A DNA stretch of 64,000 nucleotides, taken from positions 310,001 through 374,000 of the forward strand of contig NZ_LZGS01000035.1 of the NCBI RefSeq assembly GCF_001690495.1, given 5' to 3'. Source of the DNA: Gilliamella sp. App4-10. GTDB taxonomy: Bacteria > Pseudomonadota > Gammaproteobacteria > Enterobacterales > Orbaceae. The position numbers and the translations under genes are program-made. This document shows, piece by piece, positions 19,118-32,886 of the stretch (positions within the stretch are counted from its first letter, which is position 1; every line of letters begins with the position of its first letter). The notes beneath the pieces are model-generated. The model saw only the letters and a list, made by a program, of their open reading frames with translations, was not told the origin of the DNA and made no database searches.

Positions 19118-19336
19118 GATAGTGCATTACTAAAATCACTCCCACGAGAACAACCTATTTTTCCTCGTGGGTTTACAATTAAAACAACTTAATTAAATAA
19201 TTGATTTATTATATTTTTTAATTAAAATCAATTATTTGTTCAGTAAGGAAAAATGGCTATTTTGTTTTTAATTAAAGCTACATTCTAGCAAAAAATCATC
19301 AAGTAAATGACTATATGGCTTGGATGCAAGAGTAAC
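19118..19336. other. Left chromosomal flank of the integrated element
   Basis: AT-rich DNA lies between the ydgH-like stop and attL, with only the hairpin listed next. No gene is seen. Confidence 0.4.
19141..19171 (+). terminator. Hairpin after the ydgH-like gene
   Basis: The stem CCCACGAG/CTCGTGGG with a 15-base loop starts 24 bases past the stop. Only three T follow, so it is a modest terminator candidate. Confidence 0.6.
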
Positions 19337-19361
19337 AATCACTCAGTTGCGGAATAAGAAT
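19337..19361. repeat. attL core of the P2-type element
   Basis: This 25-base sequence begins AATCACTCAGTTGCGG and is repeated exactly at 32305-32329 in the same orientation. It lies 113 bases past the int stop, which is the expected place for an attachment core next to a tyrosine integrase. Confidence 0.9.
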
Positions 19362-19453
19362 TCTAATACTGCCCTTTTAAAATCAATAACTTAAACTAAA
19401 ATTAATTAGCTAAAATCTAAATATAACTGACAAAAACCGAGTATAACTGAACT

Positions 19454-19474
19454 CAACCGCCAATTTACCGCCAT
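19454..19474. repeat. Left arm-type repeat next to int (partner at 32210-32230)
   Basis: This 21-base sequence starts CAACCGCCAATT and ends GCCAT. It matches 32210-32230 in 19 of 21 positions in the same orientation. Both copies lie about 95-120 bases inside the att cores, as expected for integrase arm-binding or accessory sites. Two copies of TATAACTGA lie just to its left near 19421-19450. Confidence 0.55.
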
Positions 19475-20482
19475 TTATTTTATATTAAATAATGGGTTTA
19501 ATGTGGTTGCTTCTTCTAGATGATCGGGAGCAAGATGGGCGTATCTCATCGTTGTTTTTATGTCTGTATGGCCAAGTATCTTTTGCAAAACAAGTATATT
19601 TCCACCATTCATCATAAAATGACTAGCAAAAGTGTGGCGCAATACATGAGTTAATTGCCCATCAGGCAACTCTATTCCTGTTCTGTCAATCGCTCTTTTA
19701 AATGCGTTTTCATGTGTACCTCTAAATATTTTTTTGTTTTCTTTTGGGATCTGGTCATATAGTTCTTTTGTTATTGGAACAGTTCGATTACGCCTTCCTT
19801 TTGTCTTAATGTATGTAATTTTATATGGCGTGATTTGAGATAATTTTAGATTGGCTATTTCTGACCACCTTGCTCCTGTTGAAAGTCCTATTTTTACCAT
19901 TAATGATAAATACGTAACGTTGCTATTTTGACATTCATTTAATAATAGTTTTATTTGATCATTAGTTAAAAACGCCATTTCAGATTCATCAGTTTTAAAC
20001 TGTTTGATATTTTCAACGGGGTTCGGGCGTTCCCACTCTCCTAATCGAGCCAATTCATTAAACATGGCACGAAGATAAACCAATTCGAGGTTTAACGTAC
20101 GTAATGACACTGTTTTTACTGAATCGGTTCTATACAGTTCGCCAGTCATGCGTTTTTTTCGATAATTAGTAAATGTTTTAGTCGTAAAATCGCCAACTAA
20201 TGGATCATTAGTTGACTGGCAAATAAACTCAAGAATCTTTTTTACACGCTTTCCATCTTTTAGTGTTTGCCCATGTGATTGATACCAGATATTAACTAAA
20301 TCAGATATTCTTCGCCGATCTTGCTTTTCAGCAATCCACGGCTTAATAGCTACTTGTTCTTCAATATAGGCTTCATAAGCAAGTGCTTCACCTTTTGTTG
20401 TGAACGTTTTACGAATTCTACGCCCACCCTCTAGGTATTTTTCAAATAGCCATTTGCCATTACTTTGTTTTCTTACACTCAC
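19475..20482 (-). CDS. int: P2-family tyrosine integrase
   Basis: This site-specific recombinase inserts and excises the element. At 335 residues it has the P2-type N-terminus (SVRKQSNGKWLFEKYLEGGRRIRKTF), a core-binding SAM-like domain (residues ~60-160), and the catalytic domain. The arginine lies in GARWSEIANL (near 207), a lysine in YIKTKGRRNRTVPI, the box HVLRHTFASHFMM near 280, the histidine in LQKILGHTDIKTT and the nucleophile tyrosine in MRYAHLAPDH. It lies next to attL and is probably cotranscribed with cI and the AlbA_2 gene during lysogeny. Confidence 0.95.
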   Translation of the reverse strand: MSVRKQSNGKWLFEKYLEGGRRIRKTFTTKGEALAYEAYIEEQVAIKPWIAEKQDRRRISDLVNIWYQSHGQTLKDGKRVKKILEFICQSTNDPLVGDFTTKTFTNYRKKRMTGELYRTDSVKTVSLRTLNLELVYLRAMFNELARLGEWERPNPVENIKQFKTDESEMAFLTNDQIKLLLNECQNSNVTYLSLMVKIGLSTGARWSEIANLKLSQITPYKITYIKTKGRRNRTVPITKELYDQIPKENKKIFRGTHENAFKRAIDRTGIELPDGQLTHVLRHTFASHFMMNGGNILVLQKILGHTDIKTTMRYAHLAPDHLEEATTLNPLFNIK

Positions 20483-20497
20483 TTTATATCAAGACTC

Positions 20498-22510
20498 CTA
20501 ATGCTCTTCCACTGTGGTATAACCTTGTTTAGGAATATTTGGTACATGAGGAAATGCCATACGAAGAACGCCATCTTTAGTTAATTGTTTAACATACCCT
20601 TGTCGTAATCTATCTGGAGTTCTATTGACTAATATAGCAAGAGCGGATAATGAGATATAGTGCCCCTTACAAAGTGCGATTAAAACCGTTTTCATTTCAT
20701 CAAAAGTAATTCTCTTTTTTATGGTTGGCGAGGCTATTTTTTCTAAACTTTGAAGGAACCCATTATCAAGTTGTGTCAACTCAAATATAAATGGCTTATC
20801 TACACGTTCATCAATTATTCTTCCTAATAAATCCTTATTGGTTGATGAAGTATTTTTATAACCGGAGCTCGGCTCCTTATAACCGGAGTTTTTATTTTTA
20901 TAACCGGAGTTATTGTTTCTTGATGTCAAAGAACCATCTCTATATATGTGGTCATGTTGAATATTTTCACCATCATTAGCATAAAGAATATCTTCTGGCA
21001 TAAGCAACTCTTCTTCACCAAATAACTTATATATTTTATTTTTTTTCTCTCCTTGAGATATAAGGAATCCTTTTCTTTCTAAATTAGGTAAGGCGAGCGT
21101 GACCTCTCTTGAATGCTTAGAGGTTAACTCACAAGCTCGTTGGTGATTTATCCAATTTTCTTGTGCGGTTGTAGCCAATATCATTTTTTCAAAATCATCT
21201 AATTTTGAAAAATTGTCATATCCAAATTTTTTAACTAAATAGTCGACAATATTATGGGGTATTAAGCTTGTCGTTGATAACTCTAATAAAGTCTGCTCGA
21301 TATCATATTTTTCTCTTAAATTGGGAACTTTCCAATTAGCTTGTTCCCAACCTGAGTATATTCGCGGAACTCCGGAACCCGCTCGCTCCCCTAAACCAAT
21401 ATATAAAAACATTTGTTGCATTTTTTGGTTGCGACATTCACTGTTCCCTCCCTTTATTGCATCTTCTTTAGATATGAGCATTAGACCAGGATTTCTAAAA
21501 CCAAACATATCAGGTCTTTTAACCACTAAAATGGAAACTCTGCCTGTTAAGTAATCAGCGTGAACTAAGGTATTAACTAAAGCCTCACGAAGTGCTTGAT
21601 GTATACCTGAATCAGATTGACGTACACCATCTGTAATATTGAAAGGTACTTTTAAATCTGACACTAATTTTGGATAAACAAGTTGATAAAAGTCAAAAAC
21701 ATTTCCTGACCAGCTGCCATCATAAAATACGCGATCTATCCAACGTGTATCTATTTTGTTTTCAGGTCGCTCTATATAATCAACAGAATATTTGGGGATA
21801 ATTTCTGTAATGGCATCCCATTTACCAAACATGAGTAATCCTGCAATGGTTAACCCTTCTTTTTTCGTGTATCGATCTTTTCTCCACCCGCCAATTTTGC
21901 TTAAAAATGAAAGCAAATTTTCTTTTAAAAAAGGATGTTCTGGATGCCTAGCAGAGAATATATTTCTGTATTTTTGTAAGCTTTCTATTTCAATATCATC
22001 AATCGTAAAATTATCTAAAATACGAGAGTCTGTTCCTTGTGGATCTTGTTCTAAAATCATTTGCCGTATTTTTGCTTCATCGCATTTAATGTCACTATCA
22101 TTCATTCGGATATAAGCATTAACGATGCTATTGTTAATATAAATAGGTTTTTTATCTCTTGTTGCTGGATGAATACGAATAATTAATATCGTTTTGTTAT
22201 CAATACTTTTTTCTAAAATATCTTTGTCGGTTAATAAATTATAATTAACTTTTTCCTTATTATTTAATGCAGTAACTAATTCTTTCTTTATTTTGGTTAC
22301 ATCTTTAATACCAATAAGATTAAATTTATGAGATTTTTCTTCCACACCAAGAATAACCCAACCACCTTTAGAATTTGCCATTGCTGAATAAGTGGGCCAA
22401 AAATCTTTGGGTAATTGACCTTGGTGATCTTTCCCTTGTGCAGATTTAACCTCAATCTCTTCTGTTTCGGTTAAAGATTCAATATCAGCGAGCGTGTTTA
22501 TTTCAATCAT
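20498..22510 (-). CDS. AlbA_2 domain / HATPase_c_4 protein (RecG-like, Schlafen AAA_4 type)
   Basis: This 670-residue protein has an N-terminal AlbA_2 (Schlafen AAA_4) domain with ETEEIEVKSAQGK, YSAMANSKGGWVILGVEEK and an IRIHPATRDKKPIYI strand. A HATPase_c_4-like segment follows (REALVNTLVHADYL, GRVSILVVKRPDMFGFRNPG, GGNSECRNQKMQQMFLYIGLGERAGSGVPRI). The C-terminus looks like winged-helix modules separated by a linker with three SGYK repeats (about 20860-20915). The start is the ATG at 22508-22510, with AGGTG six bases upstream. It lies between cI and int, so it should be expressed in the lysogen. Such proteins are annotated as regulators or as phage-exclusion candidates; the function here is unknown. 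Confidence 0.8.
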   Translation of the reverse strand: MIEINTLADIESLTETEEIEVKSAQGKDHQGQLPKDFWPTYSAMANSKGGWVILGVEEKSHKFNLIGIKDVTKIKKELVTALNNKEKVNYNLLTDKDILEKSIDNKTILIIRIHPATRDKKPIYINNSIVNAYIRMNDSDIKCDEAKIRQMILEQDPQGTDSRILDNFTIDDIEIESLQKYRNIFSARHPEHPFLKENLLSFLSKIGGWRKDRYTKKEGLTIAGLLMFGKWDAITEIIPKYSVDYIERPENKIDTRWIDRVFYDGSWSGNVFDFYQLVYPKLVSDLKVPFNITDGVRQSDSGIHQALREALVNTLVHADYLTGRVSILVVKRPDMFGFRNPGLMLISKEDAIKGGNSECRNQKMQQMFLYIGLGERAGSGVPRIYSGWEQANWKVPNLREKYDIEQTLLELSTTSLIPHNIVDYLVKKFGYDNFSKLDDFEKMILATTAQENWINHQRACELTSKHSREVTLALPNLERKGFLISQGEKKNKIYKLFGEEELLMPEDILYANDGENIQHDHIYRDGSLTSRNNNSGYKNKNSGYKEPSSGYKNTSSTNKDLLGRIIDERVDKPFIFELTQLDNGFLQSLEKIASPTIKKRITFDEMKTVLIALCKGHYISLSALAILVNRTPDRLRQGYVKQLTKDGVLRMAFPHVPNIPKQGYTTVEEH

Positions 22511-22563
22511 GATATTCACCTAAATATTTATCATCCAACCTAAACCTTACCCATTTTTTATGA

Positions 22564-22932
22564 TTAAGTATTTTTTAAAATGCTCGCCTTTAATAATTGA
22601 TATTCATCATCAGTTATTGCGCTGCTATTTTTTAATGCCGCAATACGTTCTAATTTTTCTAATGTTTCGCTTGTTATTTCAATTGTTTTTTTTTCTGTTT
22701 TTACTCCATCAATGTTTGATTTACCTTCGCCAGTGCAAAGCCATAACAGATTAGCTCCCGTATCTAATGCGCACTGTATTATGTATTCTGCTGGAATTGT
22801 ATTTCTGACAACTCTATTGGAGAGAACGCTAATTCCCACGCCAAAATATTCACATAACGCTTTCATTGTTTTTAATCTGTAAGCGCTAACCATTCTATCT
22901 ATTATGTTTTTAGCACTATCAAATTGAATCAT
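22564..22932 (-). CDS. cI: P2/186-type CI repressor, short form
   Basis: This 122-residue lysogeny repressor matches the phage CI N-terminal HTH family: FDSAKNIIDRMVSAYRLKTMKALCEYFGVGISVLSNRVVRNTIPAEYIIQCALDTGANLLWLCTGEG. The HTH spans roughly residues 22-45. There is no C-terminal peptidase-type oligomerisation domain; instead the end (ETLEKLERIAALKNSSAITDDEYQLLKA) resembles a short SHOCT-like helix pair. It should repress the divergent cox promoter and control its own through the three operators at 22964-23022. It lacks a LexA-like self-cleavage domain, so SOS induction would need an antirepressor. Confidence 0.88.
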   Translation of the reverse strand: MIQFDSAKNIIDRMVSAYRLKTMKALCEYFGVGISVLSNRVVRNTIPAEYIIQCALDTGANLLWLCTGEGKSNIDGVKTEKKTIEITSETLEKLERIAALKNSSAITDDEYQLLKASILKNT

Positions 22933-22963
22933 ATTAACTCCCAGAATACCAAAAAGAAAACAT

Positions 22964-23022
22964 ACCTGTAAGGTATTGACATAAACCTAAAAGGTATTCA
23001 TAATAAAAAATACCGATTAGGT
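22964..23022. promoter_or_regulatory. Three CI/Cox-region operators
   Basis: Three related palindromes lie in the cI-cox intergenic region: ACCTGTAAGGT (22964-22974), ACCTAAAAGGT (22985-22995) and ACCGATTAGGT (23012-23022). The consensus is ACCTNNNAGGT, with centres 21 and 27 bases apart. They are the likely binding sites for the CI repressor at the divergent lysis/lysogeny switch. Confidence 0.75.
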
Positions 23023-23087
23023 TATTTTTTTACACTAATCAAACCAAATATAATCGAATATAAACCAGTTAGAGGAAATAATGCACT

Positions 23088-23312
23088 ATGAAACAAGATT
23101 TATCAATAACTTTCGGTGCTGCATATATGACTGTTGAAGAATATGCAAAACATTCTGGAATGAAAGAAAAAACTATAAAAGATTATGTCCATAAGGGGTA
23201 TTTACCAATTCGCAAAAAGAATATCACTGGCAAGCGATCAATTATTTTAATCAATAATGCGGCTTTAGTTGCTGAAGCGCTGGCGGACAGAAGCCCAACG
23301 ATTAACATTTAA
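23088..23312 (+). CDS. cox: Cox/Apl-type regulator and excision factor
   Basis: This 74-residue protein has a MerR/excisionase-like winged HTH (YMTVEEYAKHSGMKEKTIKDYVHKGYLPIRKK). It is the first gene rightwards of the cI-cox switch, the position of P2 cox and 186 apl. These proteins repress the lysogenic promoter and act as directionality factor for Int. The start at 23088 gives a normal length; the identification rests on HTH type plus position. Confidence 0.8.
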   Translation: MKQDLSITFGAAYMTVEEYAKHSGMKEKTIKDYVHKGYLPIRKKNITGKRSIILINNAALVAEALADRSPTINI

Positions 23313-23323
23313 AAGGTTTAGCC

Positions 23324-23503
23324 ATGAGTCATGTAATCTATTTGAGTTCCAAAGTCGCTAATAAACCGGCTTTAATTTTTATTCAGATTAATAACCATAA
23401 CCCTAAAGGTTGGGTTGAGAAACCGAATGGGCAAGCAATTAAATTGCATCAGCCACTAACAGGTAATAAGCATGAACAACTTTCAACGCGCTCGCAATCT
23501 TGA
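23324..23503 (+). CDS. Small early-region protein, 59 residues
   Basis: This frame (MSHVIYLSSKVANKPALIF...) starts 11 bases after cox with AAGG upstream and overlaps the next gene by 32 bases. It is basic and has no recognised domain. Its place in a tightly packed early operon supports it being real. Confidence 0.55.
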   Translation: MSHVIYLSSKVANKPALIFIQINNHNPKGWVEKPNGQAIKLHQPLTGNKHEQLSTRSQS

Positions 23504-23807
23504 GTACCTCCGTAACCTTCACTTATTAATAAGCGGTAAGCGTAGCTTGGCCAGATCAGCTTTTAATAATTTAAAGCCTGGGCAAAAACGGTTATTGCTA
23601 GCAGCATCAGGTATCAAGCAGCGCACAACCATCATTTACAACGCAGATAGTCAATTTTCCCACACTTGGGAAATGCGATATGACGATCTGACCGATAAAG
23701 AAATCGACAACCTAAAAAAGGGATTGTGTCGTTTGCAATCAATTATTGATGCGTTCGCAATCTGCGAATCTGCCGACTTTATAAAAGAAACAAAACAGGT
23801 GGCATAA
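23472..23807 (+). CDS. P2-type early-region protein of unknown function
   Basis: This 111-residue protein begins NNFQRARNLEYLRNLHLL and has a basic N-terminal half with KPGQKRLLLAASGI and a C-terminal helix (EIDNLKKGLCRLQSIIDAF). I do not recognise a named domain. Its place between cox and the DUF2732 gene corresponds to the P2 orf78/B/orf80 block. It ends immediately before the next ATG. A role in early replication is only inferred from position. Confidence 0.65.
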   Translation: MNNFQRARNLEYLRNLHLLISGKRSLARSAFNNLKPGQKRLLLAASGIKQRTTIIYNADSQFSHTWEMRYDDLTDKEIDNLKKGLCRLQSIIDAFAICESADFIKETKQVA

Positions 23808-24023
23808 ATGAATATGACAATAGTTAACGAGGATGTATTACTGCAAGCATTAAAACAGGCTAGAGAAGAAACTAAGACTGGACTGTGTGACCTATTTACA
23901 GCAAAACTTGAACGGTTAGCGGCTCACATTCGAACTGATTACTTATCACCAATCGAGTCTGCTGAACTTCTTGAACAAGAAGCCGAAGCAATGCGGCAAA
24001 AGAATTATGAAAACGTGGCCTAA
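23808..24023 (+). CDS. DUF2732 family phage protein
   Basis: This 71-residue protein has the pattern of DUF2732, a family confined to P2-like early regions: LLQALKQAREETKTGLCDLFTAKLERLAAHI, then LSPIESAELLEQEAEAM. It is mostly helical. It lies directly after the previous gene, and its stop overlaps the ATG of the decayed zinc-finger gene (TAATG). Function is unknown. Confidence 0.75.
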   Translation: MNMTIVNEDVLLQALKQAREETKTGLCDLFTAKLERLAAHIRTDYLSPIESAELLEQEAEAMRQKNYENVA

Positions 24024-24288
24024 TGCATGATGTTATCAAACGAACGAATGATATCGTTTAATTAGAGCTCGATAATCTAATTGCTAATCGCAAAACGTTT
24101 CAAGGTAACTCAGCAACACACTGCATTTAATGCAACGTATCGCTCCCTGAAAACGCCGTCAATTAATTGAAGGATGTCAGCTTTGCATTGACTGTCAGCA
24201 ATTAAAAGACCAGCAAAGGTTAATTAGTAAAAAACACAGCGAAAGAAATATTATCGCAACGATCCACCATGCGTCCAAATTGTCATAG
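24023..24288 (+). pseudogene. Decayed TraR/DksA-type zinc-finger gene
   Basis: From the ATG at 24023 the frame reads MHDVIKRTNDIV-stop-LELDNLIANRKTFQGNSATHCI-stop-CNVSLPEN. A one-base shift restores RRQLIEGCQLCIDCQQLKDQQ, ending at the TAG at 24286-24288. The C-x2-C (with the stop between) and C-x2-C pairs plus the order of blocks are those of the small TraR/DksA zinc-finger proteins coded at this place in P2-like phages. Two in-frame TAA codons and a frameshift make it a pseudogene. Confidence 0.75.
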
Positions 24289-24337
24289 GCTAACGGCTTC
24301 TAATATTAAATTTGATAACACAATTGAGAATAAAAAT

Positions 24338-24586
24338 ATGTTTGATGAATTTCAATCAAAATCACTTAAAGTCATTCGGTTATATTGTTATCTATTTGGA
24401 TTAATTGCTAGTTATAACATGCAAGTGATTATTGTTCCTAATGAGCTGGCAACAATCTTAAACCGTAATCTAACTGTTAATATTTCATGTGGTGATGCAG
24501 TCATGATTTGTGAAACCATTGATGCATATCATTTAGATGTGGATAGAGCAGTAGATATTATTGAATTGGAACTCAATGACGAATAA
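24338..24586 (+). CDS. Hypothetical early-region protein, 82 residues
   Basis: I start this at the ATG at 24338 (MFDEFQSKSLKVIRLYCYLFGLI). A start at 24269 would overlap the end of the pseudogene above and adds a segment without helix-like character. The protein is acidic at the C-terminus (VDIIELELNDE) and has no recognised domain. It sits upstream of dam in the early operon. Confidence 0.5.
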   Translation: MFDEFQSKSLKVIRLYCYLFGLIASYNMQVIIVPNELATILNRNLTVNISCGDAVMICETIDAYHLDVDRAVDIIELELNDE

Positions 24587-24683
24587 GAAGAACAAATTTT
24601 ACTAATCAATAATTAAACTGGACAGTTGTCCCAAATCTTTTAAATTTCAAACAAACAAAATGCATATAGATTAAGGAGCACAA

Positions 24684-25529
24684 ATGAATATTAAAAAATC
24701 GTTTTTAAAGTGGCCGGGAGGAAAAGGTCGCATTATTGAGTTATTACTATCTTATTTACCAACCAACGGACGATTTATTGAGCCATTTGTTGGCGCTGGT
24801 AATGTTTTTATTAATGTCGATGCCAAAAGTTATATTTTAACGGATAGCAACAGTGATTTAATTAACGTTTATCATTGGTTAAAAAGTGATGCAACAATAT
24901 TGATAAATGAAACCAAAGCACTTTTTGATAGCGAAGTTGATTTTTATGAATTAAGAAACCAGTTTAATCTATCATCTAAAAGGCACACATTAGAACAAGC
25001 AGCAAAATTTATTTGGCTAAATCGACATTGCTTCAATGGTCTTTGCAGATATAACAGAAATGGCAACTTCAACGTGCCAAAAGGTAAACATAGTAATACT
25101 TATTTTCCAGAACAAGAACTCATTAATTTTAGTAAAAAATTATGTGACACCGATGTGTTACTAACTGCATGTGATTTTAGAACAACAATTACCAAAGCAG
25201 AATCTAACGATATAATTTATTGCGATCCTCCTTACCTGGGTCCGTTTAATGGATCATTTGTGGGTTATACTTCAAACAGTTTTGATTACATAAAAACGCA
25301 AGAGTTAGAAAAATGTCTGTTTGATGCAGTCAAACGGGGGGCAATTGCTATTATTTCTAACAGTGATAATCCAATAACGCAAGAAATCTTTAATAAATTC
25401 AATATCCATTCTATTGAATCTCCGCGCTCGATAGCAGCCAACGGCAATCGCAAGCCAGCAAAAGAGATTATTGGCGTGTTAACGCCAGAAATGATTAACA
25501 ACTCACAACAAAAGGACCTCACAAAATAA
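24684..25529 (+). CDS. dam: DNA adenine methylase (Dam type, phage)
   Basis: This 281-residue D12-class N6-adenine methyltransferase should modify GATC sites. Motif X is SFLKWPGGKGRIIELLLSYLP (N-terminal), motif I FIEPFVGAGNVF, the region ILTDSNSDLINVYHWLK follows, and the catalytic DPPY is in IIYCDPPYLGPFNG (about residue 180). A ribosome site (AAGGAG) lies seven bases before the ATG. Dam genes are common cargo of P2-type early regions, where they can protect phage DNA or alter regulation. Sequence specificity is inferred from similarity to Dam. Confidence 0.92.
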   Translation: MNIKKSFLKWPGGKGRIIELLLSYLPTNGRFIEPFVGAGNVFINVDAKSYILTDSNSDLINVYHWLKSDATILINETKALFDSEVDFYELRNQFNLSSKRHTLEQAAKFIWLNRHCFNGLCRYNRNGNFNVPKGKHSNTYFPEQELINFSKKLCDTDVLLTACDFRTTITKAESNDIIYCDPPYLGPFNGSFVGYTSNSFDYIKTQELEKCLFDAVKRGAIAIISNSDNPITQEIFNKFNIHSIESPRSIAANGNRKPAKEIIGVLTPEMINNSQQKDLTK

Positions 25530-25730
25530 TAAGGCAAGTATTTAAAGTCATTTGAAATTCAATCGTTGTTGCATCGGCACATCAAGCAATTAAACCAGTG
25601 TTTAATGCTGACGATCAGGCGATATTAATAAATTTAACAAGATAAAGGCAAAAAGACGTAACAAGCCTATAAGTATAGCAAAAGCCCGCCTATCGGTTAA
25701 AAATTTTTAATAAACAAAGCATAAAATAAT

Positions 25731-27794
25731 ATGAATACAATCACGAACCTACCATCAATCAGCAACAGGGCGAAATCTGTCCTGTTTTTGGCTATGCGTG
25801 ATTTTTACGATACCGTCGGGCAATTTTTACCAACAAAATATATTCAGCCAAAATCACAATACGCCACAGCTTGCAGGCCTCCAAAAGATTTAACGATTAT
25901 TGAGCGTCCACTATGGGAACAAATCCCACATGAATATGATTATTTCCATTCATATTTTAGGGATACGCCTCAGTTTATTGGCAGATACTTCGCTAGAAAA
26001 TATCTAACGCTGTATCAAGAAAAAGGCTCAAAAGTTGCTAACACCTATTTACGAACCTGTGGATTAACTCGCTGCACCGAAGTACAGAAAAAATATTCAT
26101 TAAATGTCGAAAAAAGTTTAATTGCTCAAGCATTCTATAAACAGCTATCGATATTACCGAGCTTGGACAAAATCGACGTTGAAGAACTTGGCGGACAGAT
26201 TGCTAGCTATATGCACAATTTAATCACCCACTTTTTAGAAACAGATGAATTTAAGTTAAGCAATAACGTCCATGAATTAGCTATCTATAAGTTTGTATTA
26301 GAGCAGCTCAAACCATTAAAAATTACAGCGCCCTACTTTGCCAATTATAAAAAAGATGAAATCAACGAACAGCAAATTGTTATCGCACTAGCCAAGCTTA
26401 CTGATGATAAATGGTGGCAAAACAAGTTAACACGCACTTGGGCTTTTCAACGTGAACACTTGGCAATTGCTGCGGGACAAGTTCAGAAATCCGCAAGCCC
26501 ATATGCAAGCCGCACATGCGTAGGTGAATGGAGAGAGCAAAAAAGGAAAAATCGGGAGTGGTTGAAAAATCAATGTATAGAAAATACTGAAACGGGTGAA
26601 CAATTTGAGCTTGTTTTACAGGTCGATAAATCTAATGCCAACCCAGCTATTCGTCGTTGTGAGCTTATGGTTCGTATGCGGGGATTTGAGGACATCGCCG
26701 ACGAGTACGGTTATGAGGGGGTATTTATAACATTGACTGCACCGTCAAAATATCACGCCGTACATGCTAAAGGTGGGTTTGTCAAAAACTGGAACGGCGG
26801 CACACCACGGGACGCACAACGCTACTTATGCAAAGTATGGGCAAAAATCAGGGCAAAGCTCAATCGTGAAAATATCAAAATCTTTGGCTTTAGAGTTGCT
26901 GAGCCTCACCATGACGGTACGCCACATTGGCATATATTAGTTTTTATGCTACCTGACAATAAAGATAAAGTTTATGACATTATGTATTCATACGCACTAG
27001 AAGAAGACGGCAACGAACCGGGTGCGCGTGAAAACCGTTTCAAGTTTGAAGAAATTGAAAAAGAGAAAGGCTCAGCAACGGGTTACATTGCTAAATATAT
27101 TTCTAAAAACATTGACGGTTATCAACTTGATGGCGAAGTCGATGACGAGACAGGACAAAACTTAAAAGAGATGGCGAAGAACGTAACGGCTTGGGCTAAC
27201 CGCTGGGGTATTCGTCAGTTTCAGCAAATCGGCGGCGCACCTGTGACCGTGTGGCGTGAACTGCGTCGGCTCGGCAGCCAAAAAGTCGAAAGCCCAGCAA
27301 TCGACCCAGTACTTGCCGCAGCTGATGCAGGCGACTGGGCGGCATACACAGAATTACAAGGCGGTGCTATGGTACAGCGTAAAGACTTGCGCGTCAGAAT
27401 TTCGTACGAAGAAGCACAAAACCAATTTGAGGAAGACGTCAAAAAGATTAAAGGGGTATTTTCCCCCATTATTGGCATGGCATCTTTTATATGCACTCGT
27501 TTAATAAAGTGGGCTATTGTCTCTAAAAATAGGCGCGAACGCGCCCCTTGGAGTTCTGTCAATAACTGTACGGAGATCAAAAAATCACCAAAGTACGATC
27601 GACGTCAAAAAGTGATAAATGAGCTAAAAAAACATCAAATAAATTACAACTCGCACCAGTTAAATCATCTTTTAGCGGGGCGGGAACTAAAATTTAGTGA
27701 TAAATTGCTAATAAAATGGATTAAAGACAAGTTGGCCATAATCGATTTACACCAGAAATGGATCGAAATAGGGCCAGATATTGAGTTTTTTTAA
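25731..27794 (+). CDS. P2 gpA-type replication initiation endonuclease
   Basis: This 687-residue HUH nickase initiates rolling-circle replication of P2-like phages by nicking at ori and joining to the 5' end. The HUH motif is EPHHDGTPHWH (residues 391-401), and the paired catalytic tyrosines are in GYIAKYISK (Y452 and Y456). Upstream is YEGVFITLTAPSKYH, the conserved motif I. The N-terminal half has the family block WEQIPHEYDYFHSYFRDTPQFIGRYF. It is slightly shorter than P2 gpA but looks complete. The last ~80 residues (after ~600) are more basic and divergent. The structural genes that normally come next are absent. Confidence 0.93.
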   Translation: MNTITNLPSISNRAKSVLFLAMRDFYDTVGQFLPTKYIQPKSQYATACRPPKDLTIIERPLWEQIPHEYDYFHSYFRDTPQFIGRYFARKYLTLYQEKGSKVANTYLRTCGLTRCTEVQKKYSLNVEKSLIAQAFYKQLSILPSLDKIDVEELGGQIASYMHNLITHFLETDEFKLSNNVHELAIYKFVLEQLKPLKITAPYFANYKKDEINEQQIVIALAKLTDDKWWQNKLTRTWAFQREHLAIAAGQVQKSASPYASRTCVGEWREQKRKNREWLKNQCIENTETGEQFELVLQVDKSNANPAIRRCELMVRMRGFEDIADEYGYEGVFITLTAPSKYHAVHAKGGFVKNWNGGTPRDAQRYLCKVWAKIRAKLNRENIKIFGFRVAEPHHDGTPHWHILVFMLPDNKDKVYDIMYSYALEEDGNEPGARENRFKFEEIEKEKGSATGYIAKYISKNIDGYQLDGEVDDETGQNLKEMAKNVTAWANRWGIRQFQQIGGAPVTVWRELRRLGSQKVESPAIDPVLAAADAGDWAAYTELQGGAMVQRKDLRVRISYEEAQNQFEEDVKKIKGVFSPIIGMASFICTRLIKWAIVSKNRRERAPWSSVNNCTEIKKSPKYDRRQKVINELKKHQINYNSHQLNHLLAGRELKFSDKLLIKWIKDKLAIIDLHQKWIEIGPDIEFF

Positions 27795-28336
27795 ATTTCG
27801 TAAAAAAGTTTCAAGAAAGCATATATTTAAGCAAAAAAACATAGATGTAATTTAAATAATACCTTTTAATTGCTTTTTCCACTGGTTAATTCATCGTTTG
27901 ATATATTCAATGACAATATTTTTATCATTTATACCTAAATTTTTTACCATTTGTCGATAACTTTGCACATCATTAAGAACTAAATTAATAGCTGATTATT
28001 TAAACTGCGGTTCGTATTTAAAGGGTTGATAAAAAAATAACGTTTTTTTTAGTTAAACTCTTGATAACAGACTGAAAATATGTAATATTTTGTTTTCAAG
28101 TAATCAATATAGTAATGTCTCAGAAATACGGTAGCTGAAAGGTATACTCACAACGGAGTATTTAAAAATAACGATTATTAATGCGATTATTACAGTACAT
28201 GATTATTTACATATCTGGCGGTTAGCCAAACAAGCCAAAGACTTTACATCTATAAATGTGTTAACTGGCATGTTAATCAATGACGAATCAAATTAGGCAA
28301 ATTACGATTAACCATAAAATTGATTTAATATTGTTT
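27795..28336. other. Deletion scar between gpA and the lysis genes
   Basis: Over 540 AT-rich bases hold no intact gene. Short open stretches exist (for example a plus-strand piece near 28165-28290 reading HDYLHIWRLAKQAKDF and a minus-strand piece near 27880-27990 reading YRQMVKNLGINDKNIVIEYIKR), but I cannot assign them. In P2-like phages this place holds the whole head gene block, so the stretch is probably debris from its loss. Confidence 0.5.
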
Positions 28337-28522
28337 ATGCAAGACATAAATAAGACAGTTAACCCCCTAACCTATAGCGTTTTTAGCAAAACCAAAGAGA
28401 TTGTTAAAATTATTTATTAAAACAAATCAATCCTATACAAATTACCTGCAATAGTGCCGAGCGGTATCGTGCTAAATGTATCCATAGCAGTGTGAGTTCC
28501 CAAAAAGTTTAAACTAAAATGA
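28337..28522 (+). pseudogene. Remnant of tail protein gpX
   Basis: From the ATG at 28337 one frame reads KTVNPLTYSVFSKTKEIVKIIY-stop-NKSILYKLPAIVPSGIVLNVSIAV-stop-VPKKFKLK-stop. The order Y-x-KTKEIV, N-x-L, LP-x-IVPSGIVLNV, then a basic tail ending near LW/LK matches P2 gpX (a ~67-residue LysM-like tail protein). gpX directly precedes the holin gene in P2, as here. Two internal TAA/TGA codons make it a pseudogene. Confidence 0.7.
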
Positions 28523-28532
28523 GATTAATTGA

Positions 28533-28910
28533 ATGACAGAACCAACTACAACAACATTCACAGCGATTATCAGTGCTTTTTCAATATCGATTATTTATCC
28601 AAATATCGAAAATGGCATGATTTTAGGTGCGCTTTGTGGCTCAATCTTACTTGTAATTAGCGAAGAGCACATCTCCGTATTTCGCCGTATCATCTTATTT
28701 TTTATATCTTTTTCGATAGGAATGTTGCTAGCCGAAATGACATTAAATCTATTAATACCTTTATTCCCGTCAAACATTCAACCAAAAGTACCGCTCGGAC
28801 TTGGTGCATTAGTCGCTTCGGCCGTTAGTGTCAAATTATTGCTTTGGTTAATTAAAAAGTTTGACGATCCATCCGACTTATTTAATAGCTTTAGGAGAAA
28901 GAAACCATAA
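28533..28910 (+). CDS. Putative holin
   Basis: This 125-residue protein has three or four predicted membrane segments (TAIISAFSISIIYPNI, MILGALCGSILLVIS, IILFFISFSIGMLLAEM, GLGALVASAVSVKLLLWLI) and a short charged C-terminal tail (FNSFRRKKP), the usual holin layout. It is the first gene of the lysis cassette and its stop abuts the endolysin ATG. Holins form the inner-membrane lesions that release or trigger the endolysin. Assigned by topology and position. Confidence 0.75.
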   Translation: MTEPTTTTFTAIISAFSISIIYPNIENGMILGALCGSILLVISEEHISVFRRIILFFISFSIGMLLAEMTLNLLIPLFPSNIQPKVPLGLGALVASAVSVKLLLWLIKKFDDPSDLFNSFRRKKP

Positions 28911-29498
28911 ATGATAACAACTGAACAATTGCAAAATGTGGCTAATAAGCTAGAAGTTGAGCTGGCTATGGTGCAAGCGGTGACAAAAATTGAGGCTTGC
29001 TCATCAGGCATTAAAAACGGCTTACCGGTAATTCTATTTGAAAGGCATATCTTTTACCATCAGCTTAAAAAACACGGCTTTGATATAGAAAAATTATCAA
29101 ATACTTATCCTGATTTAATCAATCCCACCGCTGGTGGTTATTTAGGTGGTGCTAGTGAAAACTATCGGCTAACTCTTGCCAAACAAATTGATATTGATTC
29201 CGCAATTGAAAGTGCTAGCTGGGGCTTATTTCAAATTATGGGTTTCCACTGGCAACTACTTGGCTATGAATCAGCTCAGCAATTTGAACAACATATGACT
29301 GAAAGCGAAGAAATGCAATTAGATGCGTTTTACCGTTTTGTTACTCATAAATCGAATTGCAAGCTATTACAAGCAATGAAAGATAAAGATTTTTCAACGT
29401 TTGCAAAACTTTACAACGGTCCAGCTTATAAAAAAAATAGCTATGACTTAAAACTCAAAGAGGCATACGAAAACTATGCAAAATCTATTAAAAAGTAA
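28911..29498 (+). CDS. Phage endolysin, N-acetylmuramidase family
   Basis: This 195-residue muramidase belongs to the DUF3380/N-acetylmuramidase group. Characteristic blocks are LAMVQAVTKIEACSSG (probable catalytic Glu28), LPVILFERHIFYHQL, PTAGGYLGGASENYRL, and SASWGLFQIMGFHWQLLGY. It has no signal peptide, so it needs the holin. The start is one base after the holin stop, and its 3' end overlaps the Rz gene by 23 bases. The gene looks intact. Confidence 0.92.
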   Translation: MITTEQLQNVANKLEVELAMVQAVTKIEACSSGIKNGLPVILFERHIFYHQLKKHGFDIEKLSNTYPDLINPTAGGYLGGASENYRLTLAKQIDIDSAIESASWGLFQIMGFHWQLLGYESAQQFEQHMTESEEMQLDAFYRFVTHKSNCKLLQAMKDKDFSTFAKLYNGPAYKKNSYDLKLKEAYENYAKSIKK

Positions 29499-29922
29499 GC
29501 TATTACCGTGGTCACTATTACTGGTTTGTTTATTGTTAAATTGTGTGCAAAATCAACTATTGAGCACTAAAAATAAACAATTGCAAACAAGTAATCTACA
29601 ACTACAGAATGATAAGCAAAAGTTAATCGAAATCATTGATGATAAAAACAATGAATTAATTGAACTTAGTTATCAGTATCGGGCAAATGAACAAAAATTG
29701 ATAGAACAAAAAAATCAACTGCACGCGGTTGATACGTTAAATCGTCAATATCAACAACAATTGGAGCTACTTATCAATGAAAATAAACAATTACGCATAT
29801 GGTCTAATACTGATCTGCCTGATGTTATTAAATGGCTGTACACTCGGCCAGAAATCAAAGGAAGTGAAGATTATCAAAACTGGATGTCCAGCCGTAACGC
29901 CTTGCTATCTTCCCATGAATAA
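29476..29922 (+). CDS. Rz/LysB-like inner-membrane spanin
   Basis: This 148-residue protein has an N-terminal membrane anchor (LLPWSLLLVCLLLNCV) followed by a long, Gln/Asn/Lys-rich coiled coil (residues ~25-110). That is the layout of i-spanins, which link inner and outer membranes and fuse them in the last step of lysis. It overlaps the endolysin end and contains the start of the Rz1 gene in another frame, the classic nested arrangement. Confidence 0.85.
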   Translation: MQNLLKSKLLPWSLLLVCLLLNCVQNQLLSTKNKQLQTSNLQLQNDKQKLIEIIDDKNNELIELSYQYRANEQKLIEQKNQLHAVDTLNRQYQQQLELLINENKQLRIWSNTDLPDVIKWLYTRPEIKGSEDYQNWMSSRNALLSSHE

Positions 29923-30049
29923 TTTACGGCGGAATCGTTCATTAATTGACGACAACCAAGCCATCTTAACGGCATGGCATCAATGTGCGATTCAAGTCGA
30001 AATGATTTATCAATGCCAGCAAGAACAAAATCAGCATGGGAAAAATTAA
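29777..30049 (+). CDS. Rz1/LysC-like outer-membrane spanin lipoprotein, nested in Rz
   Basis: This 90-residue lipoprotein has a signal sequence and lipobox (YGLILICLMLLNGC, cysteine at residue 21). It starts inside the Rz gene in a different frame and continues 127 bases beyond it. The family hallmark CPAVTPCYLP follows, with a proline-containing segment as in LysC of P2. It pairs with the i-spanin above. Its intact state next to a decayed structural block is notable. Confidence 0.85.
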   Translation: MKINNYAYGLILICLMLLNGCTLGQKSKEVKIIKTGCPAVTPCYLPMNNLRRNRSLIDDNQAILTAWHQCAIQVEMIYQCQQEQNQHGKN

Positions 30050-30112
30050 ACAATTTCTGGTAAAAGTTTTAGAGGATGATTTTAATAATGGAATGTATAG
30101 TTTCCAACAAAT

Positions 30113-30147
30113 AAAAAAACTGAACCCTGTAAATCACAGGATTCAGT
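30113..30147 (-). terminator. Terminator of the lipase gene
   Basis: On the minus strand the stem ACTGAATCCTGT/ACAGGGTTCAGT (one mismatch) is followed by seven T. It begins 20 bases after the lipase stop. Confidence 0.9.
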
Positions 30148-30166
30148 TCTTGCAAACAAGCCTGAT

Positions 30167-31066
30167 TTATAATTCTTTAGAGCCCAAACGTGTAGCATGT
30201 TTAAGATAAAGGTCTATCGGATCTGGTTTAGTCGGATGAACACCCGCAATTTGATTGATAGCATCCAGATGATCCATTTGATAATCAGAACGGATAACCT
30301 TACCCAAATGAGAACTATAACGACCAACTAAACCATCGTTATGCTTACGCTCTTTTCTGAAAAACGTAGCTAATTTAGCCAGAACAGTATGCGAAGGATC
30401 AGCAGTATTTAAGCCTTCATTAACCACTCTTGATTTGATAATGCCACTCCAAGAATAATAGTAAACACCATTACTTTCCTGCTCTTTACCTTCGCCACCC
30501 CATTTTTTAGGGAGACCTTGCGGATATTTTAAGTTAAATTTTTTAATACTTTGAGTCGACATGTTTTTCAGTGATTTTTCAAAATCATTTACTAAAAACG
30601 GTTTGTTACTAAACAGACCAATAAATTTCATAAATGCTTTAACTATCACATCAGCAGTAGGACCTGTCATCTTACCAGAGATAATCTCCAACATTAAATC
30701 TGCAAGCTCAGAACCGTAATTCATTCCATTTACAGATGTTACTGAAGCCACCATGCTAGGATGGAGAGCTGCGACGTAACGACAGGTAAGTGCACCTTGA
30801 CTATGCCCAATCAGATTTACTTTTTGGCTACGCGTTTTTTCACGTATATTCATCACTTCATTTTTCAACTGTTCACCAGCTGCTTCAGTTGAATCGGTAG
30901 CAGAAATTGCAACTGTATAAACAGCATAACCTTGTTTTTTTAAAGATTCAGCGATCTTAAAGAAATATGGGTATCCCTTAATTCGGTTGAACCCAAACAG
31001 CCCATCTACCAGTACGATTGGATATTTTGTTTTCACAACTTTTAAGTTAGATATTGTTTTATCCAT
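30167..31066 (-). CDS. Triacylglycerol lipase, Proteus-type (family I.1)
   Basis: This 299-residue alpha/beta hydrolase should cleave triacylglycerols. The nucleophile is Ser89 in IGHSQGALTCRYVAA. The catalytic aspartate lies in NDGLVGRYSSHLGKVI and the histidine in YQMDHLDAINQIAG. The whole layout, including HPSMVASVTSVNGMNYGSELADL and the C-terminal LKHATRLGSKEL, follows Proteus mirabilis lipase. Like it, there is no signal peptide. The oxyanion-region motif is YPIVLVDGLFGF, with Asp21 where lipases normally have His (VHG). It lies at the right end of the P2-type element on the opposite strand to the lysis genes, a typical cargo position. Confidence 0.9.
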   Translation of the reverse strand: MDKTISNLKVVKTKYPIVLVDGLFGFNRIKGYPYFFKIAESLKKQGYAVYTVAISATDSTEAAGEQLKNEVMNIREKTRSQKVNLIGHSQGALTCRYVAALHPSMVASVTSVNGMNYGSELADLMLEIISGKMTGPTADVIVKAFMKFIGLFSNKPFLVNDFEKSLKNMSTQSIKKFNLKYPQGLPKKWGGEGKEQESNGVYYYSWSGIIKSRVVNEGLNTADPSHTVLAKLATFFRKERKHNDGLVGRYSSHLGKVIRSDYQMDHLDAINQIAGVHPTKPDPIDLYLKHATRLGSKEL

Positions 31067-31835
31067 TTAACCTTCCTTAATTATTCTTATATATGAGTTA
31101 TTATTGTTATTTTATAAAAATTTTACAAAGACGGTTTAAAAATCTAAATTAAAAGTAATTTCTTGCATAATGCACTAATTCTGTTTTTTTATGCAGAAAT
31201 TAACCGTAAAAAAACGATATCATTTTCGATATAATAATGCAAATTTAATTTTTAAAAAATTTTCATTTACTTTACTAAAAAATCCTAAAATGATGTTTAT
31301 TTTATATACTTTAATTAGTCTGTTGTTACGCATGAATTAGAAACTACATTAACGATATGCACATTATTTTTAATTACGTTCACAGATCCAATAAAATATT
31401 TTAATTTAAAAATCAATTTTTTAAATTAAAAATCTTCCATGCAAATAAATTCTTCTTAATTGTTTCTGCAAAAATACGGTTAAATTGTTTAAAAGTAAAA
31501 TTGAGCTTCGCCAAAAAATTTGACAAAGCTTGTGAAAACCTCATCATTAGTTAAAATTCACGTAGAAAATTAAGTGGTGTGTTTTTGTATTTTATATACA
31601 ATCAATGTTAGATTATCACGTGTTCAGAAAATCCTCACTTCATTTACAGTAATTTGGAAAACAACTGTAATGGGTATACATAAAAAATTAATATTTTATC
31701 CACGGCAAGAGATATAACGGCTACATCACAACGAAAAAAGATGCCATATAACCTATATCCCAATGTAAACATAGCAGTTTCAATCAAATGTCATCAAGTA
31801 ACATAAATAAAAAGCAGGAATATCCTCCCGCTATT
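31067..31835. other. AT-rich stretch in the right part of the element
   Basis: These 769 bases are very AT-rich and have no supported gene. Several short frames exist, but none has a ribosome site plus recognisable sequence. The lipase promoter is expected in 31067-31250. Confidence 0.5.
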
Positions 31836-32009
31836 CTATTGATTATCTTTTACTTCAGAATCATTTCTATTTTTTATCTTCAATAATAATTCATGCAATA
31901 AACACAAACCAATTTTTATATCATTTTCTGATAGCTCAGCATCAATCATTAATTTATTAATAAATTCGGCTTGCTCTAGTTTGATATCATTTTTTTTTAT
32001 TTCATCCAT
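31836..32009 (-). CDS. SOS-controlled small protein near attR, 57 residues
   Basis: I derived this frame directly: it starts MDEIKKNDIKLEQAEFINK and ends RNDSEVKDNQ. It has a strong purine-rich ribosome site (GGGGGGTAGG) before the ATG at 32007-32009, and a canonical LexA box 22 bases upstream. It is acidic, helical and has no known domain. In coliphage 186 a LexA-controlled gene (tum) near the right end encodes an antirepressor of CI. This gene has the matching position and control, but I see no sequence evidence of homology to Tum, so the role is inference. Confidence 0.6.
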   Translation of the reverse strand: MDEIKKNDIKLEQAEFINKLMIDAELSENDIKIGLCLLHELLLKIKNRNDSEVKDNQ

Positions 32010-32030
32010 CGCCTACCCCCCTTTTTTATA

Positions 32031-32046
32031 CTGTTATTATATACAG
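32031..32046 (-). promoter_or_regulatory. LexA (SOS) box
   Basis: The sequence CTGTTATTATATACAG fits CTGT-N8-ACAG exactly. On the minus strand it overlaps a TATAAT hexamer, so LexA binding would cover the -10 region of the promoter for the 57-codon gene. The element is probably induced with the host DNA-damage response through this site. Confidence 0.8.
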
Positions 32047-32209
32047 TATATTTATTGCGGGAATTATTATCAAGCAGAAATTTTATAATCTATTAATCAA
32101 CACTCTGATTCTTTAGATGTTTTATATATAAAAATGTATAAAAATCATAAGGAAATTATGATAATAACACAATAAATAGCAAACTGATTTTTAGATTTAA
32201 AAATAAAAA

Positions 32210-32230
32210 CAACCGCCAATTAATCGCCAT
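32210..32230. repeat. Right arm-type repeat (partner at 19454-19474)
   Basis: This 21-base sequence differs from the left copy at two positions and lies 75 bases inside attR in the same orientation. It is a candidate Int or Cox accessory binding site. Confidence 0.55.
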
Positions 32231-32304
32231 CCGAAAAATAAATAAAAAAATATTTAATTATTTAGTTGTTTTCATTTGTTTTATTTAAAAATAGAAAGAC
32301 ACCG

Positions 32305-32329
32305 AATCACTCAGTTGCGGAATAAGAAT
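32305..32329. repeat. attR core of the P2-type element
   Basis: This is an exact copy of the 25-base attL core. The chromosomal bases that follow (CCGCTTTTCTC) complete a GCGGA/TCCGC hairpin with the core. The empty attB site was therefore probably a terminator-like hairpin downstream of the tRNA cluster, not a tRNA gene. Confidence 0.9.
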
Positions 32330-32377
32330 CCGCTTTTCTCTTTCGTAGCTATATTTCAATTAATATGAAGTGATATC

Positions 32378-32460
32378 TGGTACGGATAGTGAGGCTTGAA
32401 TCCGCACACCTTTCAGAACTAGAACCTAAATTTATCATTTATACTAATTCCACCAACCCC
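32378..32460 (-). pseudogene. Decayed tRNA-Leu copy A
   Basis: On the minus strand the sequence follows the functional tRNA-Leu at 32887-32971 in length and block order: ATTTAGGTTCT around the anticodon TAG, AAGGTGTG in the variable arm and CCA at the end. The two strands of the acceptor stem (GGGGTTG against CTATCCG) no longer pair, and the D and anticodon stems are disrupted. It is not expected to fold as tRNA. It is the most distal unit of the cluster. Confidence 0.8.
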
Positions 32461-32537
32461 ATTTAGAAACAATAGAAAAAGTAACTTGGTAAAAATAGAC
32501 TGAATGATTAGCTATCAAAATAGTGAGGAGATTGAAT

Positions 32538-32612
32538 TGGCTGGGGTACCAGGATTCGAACCTGGGCGTGGCGGGATCAAAACCCGCTGCCTTACCGCTT
32601 GGCTATACCCCA
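32538..32612 (-). tRNA. tRNA-Gln (anticodon TTG), distal copy
   Basis: This 75-base gene includes an encoded CCA. It has 5' TGGGGTATAGCC, an anticodon stem-loop GCGGG-TTTTGAT-CCCGC with anticodon TTG, and T-arm GGTTCGAATCC. It is identical over its whole length to the copy at 32788-32862 and resembles E. coli glnU. Confidence 0.97.
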
Positions 32613-32630
32613 ATTAATATAAAGTAATAC

Positions 32631-32714: not shown

Positions 32715-32787
32715 TTAGGAATAATCGAAAAGCAAATTGCAAAAATAAACTGAATCATCAGATATCAAAACATTAAGCAGATTGAAA

Positions 32788-32862: not shown

Positions 32863-32886
32863 ACAAAGATAGAAGTTAATATTAAA

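Follow-up and report, generated by a model that had tools for sequence, protein, structure and literature searches.

Why would a prophage that has lost its virion genes keep the genes to leave the chromosome, replicate and burst its host? The question is raised by a P2-type element in a 64,000-nt stretch of the genome of Gilliamella sp. App4-10, from a genus of bee gut symbionts (assembly GCF_001690495.1, contig NZ_LZGS01000035.1, positions 310,001 to 374,000; hereafter, the window). Two perfectly matched 25-bp direct repeats, spaced 12,968 bp apart, place the ends of the element at 19337 and 32329, exactly where a sequence-only reading of the window had drawn them. The element is real and old, it is common to two Gilliamella species, its core has been selectively kept, and it has no means of packaging itself. 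At a probability of roughly 0.4, we read it as an element that has been retained for long without the ability to package itself and that may once have been a tailocin; it can probably still excise and lyse, and would serve as a lysis or release element. Such a function is the most economical reading of what has been kept, and may be what selection acts on.

The gene order is int, a SLFN-type gene, CI, Cox, small early genes, Dam, gpA, a deletion scar, holin, endolysin, LysB, LysC, a convergent lipase gene and a 57-aa open reading frame (orf). Profile hidden Markov models (HMMs) identified open frames for the integrase, CI-type repressor, Cox, DUF2732, Dam, gpA, holin, N-acetylmuramidase endolysin, LysB/Rz and LysC/Rz1, which bears out the earlier claim that the switch, integrase, Dam, gpA and a four-gene lysis cassette are open; the 673-aa SLFN_AlbA_2/RecG-C-like gene and the lipase had gone unmentioned. 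With P2-order early genes, a P2-type int, Cox, gpA and a lysis cassette, the element is a P2-like prophage remnant (Peduoviridae). The integrase retains the motif RHTFASHF...GH...Y, and gpA retains the tyrosines aligned to P2 positions 450 and 454.

Genes for building a particle were not detected, apart from remnants. No match was found in window positions 18001-34000 (tblastn, E<=1e-3) for P2 Q, P, O, N, M, L, X, R, S, V, W, J, I, H, G, FI, FII, E, T, U, D or ogr. The element thus lacks the terminase, capsid and tail genes of a complete P2-like prophage and, having no tail gene, is not a P2-type tailocin, as other loci of the genus appear to be. The sequence-only reading had allowed for a gpX remnant only; the loss of head and tail genes stands, but blastn also found a gpL remnant at about 28076-28295. 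Its statement that the TraR-like gene and gpX are broken was confirmed: at 24024-24268 there is no frame of at least 50 aa and P2 orf82 has no tblastn match, and only a remnant of gpX is left. The TraR-like gene is open in Gilliamella mensalis (L028:11024-11245). Between gpA and holin, the first 51 bp (27788-27838) are gpA-downstream sequence common to full prophages, and a remnant resembling IS3 OrfA follows at 27884-28019 (IS3 being named from a reading of the sequence). Downstream of LysC, nothing from R to ogr was found. With a scar upstream of the holin and R to ogr missing after LysC, two or more deletions must have occurred, of which the first adjoined an insertion sequence. The second deletion lies next to short sequences that recur in many Gilliamella genomes (window 31614-31739 and 31522-31616).

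The same reduced form occurs in a second species. Among the matches listed for 35 genomes of the genus, only those in the 2.43-Mb window genome (G000) and in G. mensalis (G019) span the element including the SLFN-type and lipase genes, and protein searches placed both genes in these two genomes only within the genus. Flanks are 87-89% identical between the two and pieces of the element 75-90%, in the same order and with open counterparts. The defective prophage is therefore shared at one locus and with one scar, over 391 aligned sites that are 75.4% identical (24.6% different) with 5 indels. The host sites also align (score 66, shuffle maximum 34). Independent pruning in two species was rejected because the IS3, gpL and gpX remnants are shared and the host-site alignment lies far above shuffles. 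Comparison of the locus in relatives, as the sequence-only reading had proposed, thus revealed a conserved reduced form, and its alternative, simple decay at an early stage, does not account for the whole element, since form, scar and locus are the same in two species and most of the frames have been under purifying selection.

Divergence at synonymous sites (dS, NG86) is consistent with this history. Two flanking genes have dS of 0.49 and 0.53, and 12 of 16 element genes fall between 0.33 and 0.66 (int 0.55, CI 0.66, Cox 0.61, gpA 0.56, holin 0.61, lysC 0.57). With the remaining four, considered below, the pattern fits descent from a single reduced ancestor, some parts having been exchanged later. 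Within a genome the two att cores match exactly (over 25 bp in the window, 20 bp in G. mensalis), whereas between the two genomes they differ (18-20 of 27 aligned columns); the stretches are short. That the two cores of a genome changed together suggests recombination between the ends after the split. Repeated excision is a possible cause, on which it weighs that strand exchange would even out only a few bases.

The insertion site itself resembles a decayed transfer RNA (tRNA) gene. As tRNA-Gln it scores 22 in the window (shuffle maximum 21) and 27 in G. mensalis (shuffle maximum 24), so that this identity is weak for the window taken alone. Six genomes (G003, G008, G017, G021, G022 and G023) have intact tRNAs at the site and no element. 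Over a 10-kb core block, the window genome is closest to G006 (93-99%) and G. mensalis to G023 (95-99%); the relatives give no simple tree, and both of these nearest genomes are without the element. As the tRNA site looks more decayed than the distance between G. mensalis and G023 would lead one to expect, we infer that the element was lost or replaced in some lineages, leaving a small probability for independent gain. Beside the tRNA-Gln array of G006, the nearest relative of the window genome, lies what reads as a VgrG-like type VI secretion island (L204:152-14031).

Purifying selection is evident in most of what remains. Between the window and G. mensalis, the ratio of nonsynonymous divergence to dS (dN/dS, NG86) is 0.01-0.29 for 15 of the 16 genes: Cox 0.009, CI 0.06, int 0.075, endolysin 0.09, gpA 0.10, SLFN-type gene 0.13, LysC 0.14, Dam and holin 0.15, the 59-aa orf 0.16, the 111-aa orf 0.17, LysB and DUF2732 0.20, the 57-aa orf 0.23 and lipase 0.29. 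The 105-aa orf is highest at 0.78. Other methods gave 0.52 and 0.31 for LysB, 0.43 and 0.23 for the 59-aa orf, and 0.43 and 0.58 for the 105-aa orf. Cox is identical at 73 of 74 residues in spite of its dS. In a neutral simulation calibrated on the scar, int, the SLFN-type gene and gpA stayed open in 0 of 400 runs per lineage; these long frames are therefore not open by lag. For the shorter frames, the neutral chance of staying open in one lineage, before indels, rose from about 2% (endolysin, LysB) through 9% (LysC) to 11% (holin). Changes at panel-invariant sites in the window and G. mensalis lie within the panel range for int (1 and 3 of 152), gpA (4 and 2 of 290) and CI (0 of 23); the panel excluded members with less than 85% query cover, with a stop, or within 3 residues of another member, and the test covered neither cox, the SLFN-type gene nor the 59-aa, 105-aa and 57-aa orfs. 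Polarised counts of nonsynonymous and synonymous changes (N/S) are crude, with many ambiguous sites and a neutral ratio of about 3. On the G. mensalis branch they are 19/12 for holin, 32/38 for endolysin, 22/25 for LysB, 11/10 for LysC and 24/55 for gpA, and on the window branch 37/37 for gpA. Purifying selection holds for the remaining genes, apart from the 105-aa and 111-aa orfs and, in the window, the lipase. By these comparisons, selection acts strongly on the switch, on excision and on replication; it is weaker for lysis in G. mensalis and weak for the lipase of the window. The relaxed selection that would have told against the sequence-only reading was accordingly not seen for int and gpA and partly seen for the lysis genes, through excess changes in holin and endolysin of G. 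mensalis.

These numbers bear on the proposal that we are looking at a dying prophage, whose genes look intact since it decays slowly and unevenly and since recombination with P2-like phages that infect the host undoes part of the damage. TraR, gpX and gpL are indeed broken, the lipase and 111-aa orf drift in the window as the lysis genes do in G. mensalis, the lysis block has exchanged with phage DNA (see below), the genus holds other deletion states, and two near relatives are without the element among the matches listed. What makes slow decay unlikely is that dN/dS is far below 1 for int, the SLFN-type gene, CI, Cox, Dam and gpA at a dS like that of the flanks, and that under neutral drift at the rate of the scar, int, the SLFN-type gene and gpA should have collected 7-15 stops per lineage, of which neither species shows any.

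At the nucleotide level, the window endolysin is 93.0-94.5% identical to those of G016, G021 and L147 and 78% to that of G. mensalis, and the window gpA is 84.5% identical to that of G021 and 87% to that of G. mensalis; sliding identity places the change inside the lysis block. Since the endolysin is closer to full prophages than gpA is, the block was probably renewed by recombination, and a working copy was probably taken from a phage after the species split. Taken alone, the lysis frames of the window are therefore weaker evidence of long retention than int and gpA are. Type 10 secretion is a known system with this gene set, holin, endolysin and spanins without virion genes; here the cassette remains within a P2 element, beside the convergent lipase. 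On the plus strand from gpA to holin there is no terminator-like site. A conserved lysis promoter in the scar (TTGATA-16-TAATAT, 28061-28088) was considered and is not claimed, as blocks of similar identity occur elsewhere in the scar and promoter-like sites are no commoner than in shuffles.

We compared the element with other P2-type loci of the genus. A gpA search found 15 loci in 13 of the 35 genomes (that of G033 lies on two contigs). Six of them (G003, G007, G016, G020:C34, G021 and G032:C1) are full prophages that have a capsid and a gpP-type terminase, seven (G001, G010, G012, G013, G020:C76, G032:C17 and G033) are headless but have tail genes, and two (the window genome and G. mensalis) have neither head nor tail. 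G003 and G007 resemble short forms at first sight, but by tblastn both have Q and P next to gpA (G003 also O, N, M and L), which makes them full prophages of another structural family. The headless loci contain int, CI, Cox, gpA, gpX and holin; the fetched stretches gave no match to a P2 head gene (tblastn, E<=1, in seven stretches; L214 for G010, L215+L216 for G012, L217+L218 for G001, L219+L220 for G013, L221 for G020:C76, L222 for G032:C17, L223+L224 for G033), and all seven carry P2 tail genes as far as the stretches reach. Tail content ranges from only R in G020:C76, through G and H without V-W-J-I in G001, to V to D with ogr in G013. These loci look like tailocins. In this genus, integrase, gpA and holin have repeatedly outlasted the loss of the head. 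Two further relics, one with int to Dam and ogr but without gpA (G014) and one in which int and three CI copies were the only phage genes found (G009), also occur, so that differently deleted versions exist at other loci, while both carriers have the same version at this one. In IMG/VR, 14 of 15 loci with a close gpA keep Q and P and the other is the window's own form; the search was limited to close gpA relatives, among which headless loci (53% in gpA) could hardly appear.

Gilliamella P2-like phages combine one early region with two families of structural modules, with portals about 50% or about 37% identical to that of P2 (first family, L030, L033, L031 and L039; second, L035, L036, L140, L141, L144, L146 and L150); a cos-like motif was found in the first only. 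In some Gilliamella P2-like prophages, three to four CI-type repressor genes, not all of them whole, stand in tandem (L030:11083-12549 in G021, L033:2475-4256 in G016 and L037:7542-8675 in G009).

The headless loci suggest a different past for the element, in which the head was lost first, a stage as phage-tail bacteriocin followed, and the tail was then lost, leaving int, gpA and lysis genes with selection for lysis fading. Nearly half of the genus gpA loci (7 of 15) are headless with P2 tail genes, and H-like, tail-fibre-like matches stand in a row there, seven in G012 and three in G001. No P2 capsid was found in G001, G010, G012, G013 or G033, and strong gpP-type terminase matches are confined to the six full-prophage genomes (six weak ones, E ~1e-4, lie elsewhere in other genomes). 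The drift of the lysis genes in G. mensalis also agrees with fading selection. The window gpA, however, is 84-85% identical to those of its nearest full prophages (G021 and G020:C34) and only 53-54% to those of the six unsplit headless loci, and the loss of the head in the window was therefore separate. The gpL remnant marks a separate loss as well, the window scar was not found in the headless loci, and int and gpA are still constrained. We consider a tailocin past of this kind quite improbable. What the tailocin-like relatives do appear to show, with the same P2 switch, int, gpA and holin, is that this chassis can persist without virions.

Retention of excision, replication and lysis had led the sequence-only reading to name a P2-derived satellite and a lysis device as possible accounts, of which the second is the one that we favour. 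A satellite would excise, replicate and travel in the particles of a helper P2-like phage. In its favour, constraint is seen on Int, Cox and gpA, the att cores stay matched within each genome, and potential helpers exist, with P2 capsid genes in 6 of the 35 genomes; in an excerpt of PMC7744054, satellite function is proposed as one reason for the persistence of integrases in short prophages. The packaging side gave it no support. A GC-rich cos-like motif near Q (GGTGRSGTGGGGTYTC), which resembles the P2 cohesive end, is visible in 6 of 8 aligned loci of one structural family and 0 of 7 of the other, and occurs in 4 of the 35 genomes, each time in a full prophage. This motif, which represents one of the two structural families, is absent from the element and from both carrier genomes. 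Conserved 12-mers near Q are likewise absent from the window, except for two overlapping ones at 24893-24894 inside Dam. Neither carrier genome has a P2 capsid (PF05125) or a gpP-type terminase, and the element sits at one locus in two genomes, where a satellite would be expected at several sites. Since the headless loci also keep int and gpA, retention need not mean transfer, and a satellite is by our estimate very unlikely.

The element carries two cargo genes. Across 44 genomes of the family, the SLFN-type gene occurs in the two reduced elements only; the lipase is present in both elements and has three copies elsewhere, spread over two genomes of another genus. Lipase relatives at 72-75% identity occur in records named Snodgrassella. 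Conservation of CI and of the SLFN-type gene would be explained by an immunity or defence island, in which selection favours the repressor for superinfection immunity together with the SLFN-type gene and Dam, and the rest follows. The G009 relic, reduced to int and CI copies, points the same way. But this leaves open gpA, holin, endolysin and spanins unexplained, and the PADLOC matches of the SLFN-type gene are weak (best E 1.1e-4, to a model named Aga_SIR2-PNTD1-PNTD2); we regard it as a rather unlikely account.

The lipase best matches PDB entries 6cl4 (Lipase C12) and 3w9u/4gw3, the latter presumably Proteus-type lipases, and has no evident signal peptide by eye. Its family stands behind holin, endolysin and Rz and ahead of a tail sheath gene in L132; HMMs confirmed this lysis-lipase pairing in L132 and L129 only. 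Judged by orf size and start, the same order recurs in 5 of the 12 genome loci L051-L062 and in L132, L133, L134, L136 and L137 of 13 viral contigs, some of which may be the same strains as genome loci (L135 was not parsed), and in L128 the endolysin lies about 2.3 kb downstream instead. Lipases without a signal peptide directly behind holin-endolysin-Rz are found in enterobacterial tailocin-like or phage loci (L132:2023-4354, L129:8651-10861, L057-L060 and L062). In the window, the lipase is changed at positions invariant in 95 of 95 relatives (H21D, D27N, R63A and L169M) or in 92 of 92 (G298E), and that of G. mensalis at none; this test was not leave-one-out, and L047 was excluded as having the same sequence as G. 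mensalis. With a leave-one-out panel of 15 members, the window has 7 of 102 changed and the others 0-6, a modest excess. With invariant residues changed and near-neutral N/S, a lipase maintained as partner of the lysis cassette is unsupported in the window. On one further account, which we rate as unlikely, host-level selection kept the whole P2 circuit of switch, excision, replication and lysis once all packaging and virion genes had gone. It would be an inducible lysis-release element with the signal-peptide-less lipase as its cargo, comparable to a type 10 secretion device that has not yet left its excising phage chassis.

If the element does act in lysis and release, its history and working could be as follows. 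A Gilliamella P2-like prophage would have entered a tRNA-Gln-like site and, before the two lineages parted, been stripped of the genes for packaging, head and tail by two or more deletions, of which the first lay next to an IS3 copy; both cargo genes would have been gained before that split too. Since then the genes for the CI and Cox switch, excision by Int at the att sites, replication by gpA and lysis have remained open, for the most part under purifying selection. On loss of repression, Int and Cox would excise the element and gpA would replicate the circle, while read-through of the early operon or a promoter in the scar would drive holin, endolysin and spanins and cause some cells to burst. 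As there is nothing to package, lysis itself would be the outcome, releasing cell content and, in G. mensalis, perhaps the adjacent lipase. In its working the element would then resemble type 10 secretion or the lysis devices that release colicins, and not a phage or satellite.

Several observations weigh against the lysis-release reading. The late promoter and ogr are gone with no convincing new promoter (11 promoter-like sites, 12.9 expected). The form occurs in 2 of the 35 genomes and, among the matches listed, in neither near relative (G006, G023). Four of the 16 genes (59-aa orf, 111-aa orf, DUF2732 and endolysin) have dS above 0.8, which implies that parts were exchanged. N/S is near neutral in the window for lipase (53/21) and the 111-aa orf (27/9), and the few polarised lipase changes in G. 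mensalis give a similar ratio (14/6). Panel-invariant sites are changed in G. mensalis at 15 of 85 in holin and 19 of 123 in endolysin (panel at most 5 and 6), and in Dam at 7 (window) and 9 (G. mensalis) of 117 (panel at most 6). Lipases in the Snodgrassella-named records and in genus g2 have no adjacent lysis genes, as judged by orf starts only. Some parts thus appear to be weakening, TraR and lipase in the window and holin and endolysin in G. mensalis.

Table 1. Positions in the window of the P2-type element's genes, remnants and ends.
Feature	Position	Strand	Basis or remark
attL core, 25 bp	19337..19361	.	identical to 32305-32329; apparently inside decayed tRNA-Gln
Tyrosine integrase, 335 aa	19475..20482	-	phrog_1, PF00589
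SLFN_AlbA_2 + HATPase_c_4/RecG-C protein, 673 aa, cargo	20498..22519	-	PF04326, PF13749, phrog_12156
CI-type repressor, 122 aa	22564..22932	-	PF07022
Cox excisionase/repressor, 74 aa	23088..23312	+	phrog_575
Early orf, 59 aa	23324..23503	+	open in both elements; homologues in full prophages
Early orf, 111 aa	23472..23807	+	phrog_5349, weak
DUF2732, 71 aa	23808..24023	+	PF10809
Place of broken TraR/DksA-like gene (P2 orf82)	24024..24268	+	no open frame in window
Orf, 105 aa, no assigned function	24269..24586	+	open in both elements
Dam-type adenine methyltransferase (D12)	24684..25529	+	PF02086
gpA replication initiator	25731..27794	+	PF05840, phrog_91
Deletion scar: gpA-downstream stub, IS3 OrfA-like remnant, gpL remnant	27795..28292	+	blastn
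gpX remnant	28293..28530	+	blastn; aligns with gpX region of full prophages and with G. mensalis
Holin, 125 aa	28533..28910	+	PF16931, phrog_198
Endolysin, N-acetylmuramidase, 195 aa	28911..29498	+	PF11860; PDB relatives 7q4s, 5nm7, 7rum
LysB, Rz-like spanin	29476..29922	+	phrog_89
LysC, Rz1-like spanin	29777..30049	+	PF23793, NF038368
Terminator-like 17-pair hairpin	30115..30151	.	between lysC and convergent lipase
Lipase, cargo	30167..31066	-	PDB 6cl4, 3w9u, 4gw3
Orf, 57 aa	31836..32009	-	in full prophages sits beyond ogr near attR end
attR core, 25 bp	32305..32329	.	identical to attL core

Set beside known systems, the element is closest in parts to the full P2-like prophages of Gilliamella (G021, L029+L030; G016, L033+L034), with which it shares integrase family, switch, early genes, Dam, lysis cassette and end orf (gpA 84% identical to G021, endolysin 93% in nucleotides). 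Those prophages carry Q to D and ogr, whereas the window element has no virion genes and has SLFN-type and lipase cargo, and their insertion sites are different tRNA genes (tRNA-Leu for G021, tRNA-Lys for G020 and, by a reading of the repeat, tRNA-Cys for G016). The headless, tailocin-like elements resemble it in keeping int, repressor, Cox, early genes, gpA and holin without P2 head genes, and differ in having tail or tail-fibre genes where covered and a more distant gpA, at 53-54% identity (one part of the split G033 gene reaches 64%); G012 and G013 appear, by sequence reading, to have another lysis set between gpA and gpX. If host-level selection did keep the circuit as a lysis-release element with lipase cargo, one genus would hold a series from phage through headless tailocin to bare lysis element.

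Domesticated or 'grounded' defective prophages, reportedly described by Bobay et al. in 2014 (a study cited in PMC6379469), are alike in being defective, shared at one locus and under purifying selection in their remaining genes. Grounding by loss of excision is not seen here, as int, Cox and att still look functional. In an excerpt of PMC7744054, lysis genes are preferentially lost from incomplete prophages, whereas the window element keeps them, and integrases are enriched in such prophages for unclear reasons. P4 and other satellites share an integrase and their own replication without virion genes; P4 lacks lysis functions according to part of PMC4936722, and the window element differs from it in having lysis genes, in using P2's own initiator gpA, and in that no cos-like motif was found in it. 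No such element appeared in titles and abstract openings of the literature on domesticated or cryptic prophages with lysis cassettes, Gilliamella prophages, lysis-based secretion, tailocins with a lipase or lysis cassette, P2-like satellites with lysis genes, or Proteus lipase. Here an orthologous reduced pair keeps integrase and lysis genes without any virion gene, beside headless relatives that keep integrase and gpA, and what selects for excision, replication and lysis without packaging becomes testable within one gut-symbiont genus.

A functional parallel is type 10 secretion in Yersinia entomophaga, where, according to part of PMC10847048, a lysis cassette releases cargo by bursting some cells. 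The window element differs in that its cassette still sits in a P2 element with int, gpA and repressor, its lipase is convergent, weakened and not in one operon with the lysis genes, and the likeness is one of genes alone. Within that likeness, both combine holin, endolysin and spanins without virion genes with nearby cargo that has no evident export signal, and for both, release by lysis is proposed.

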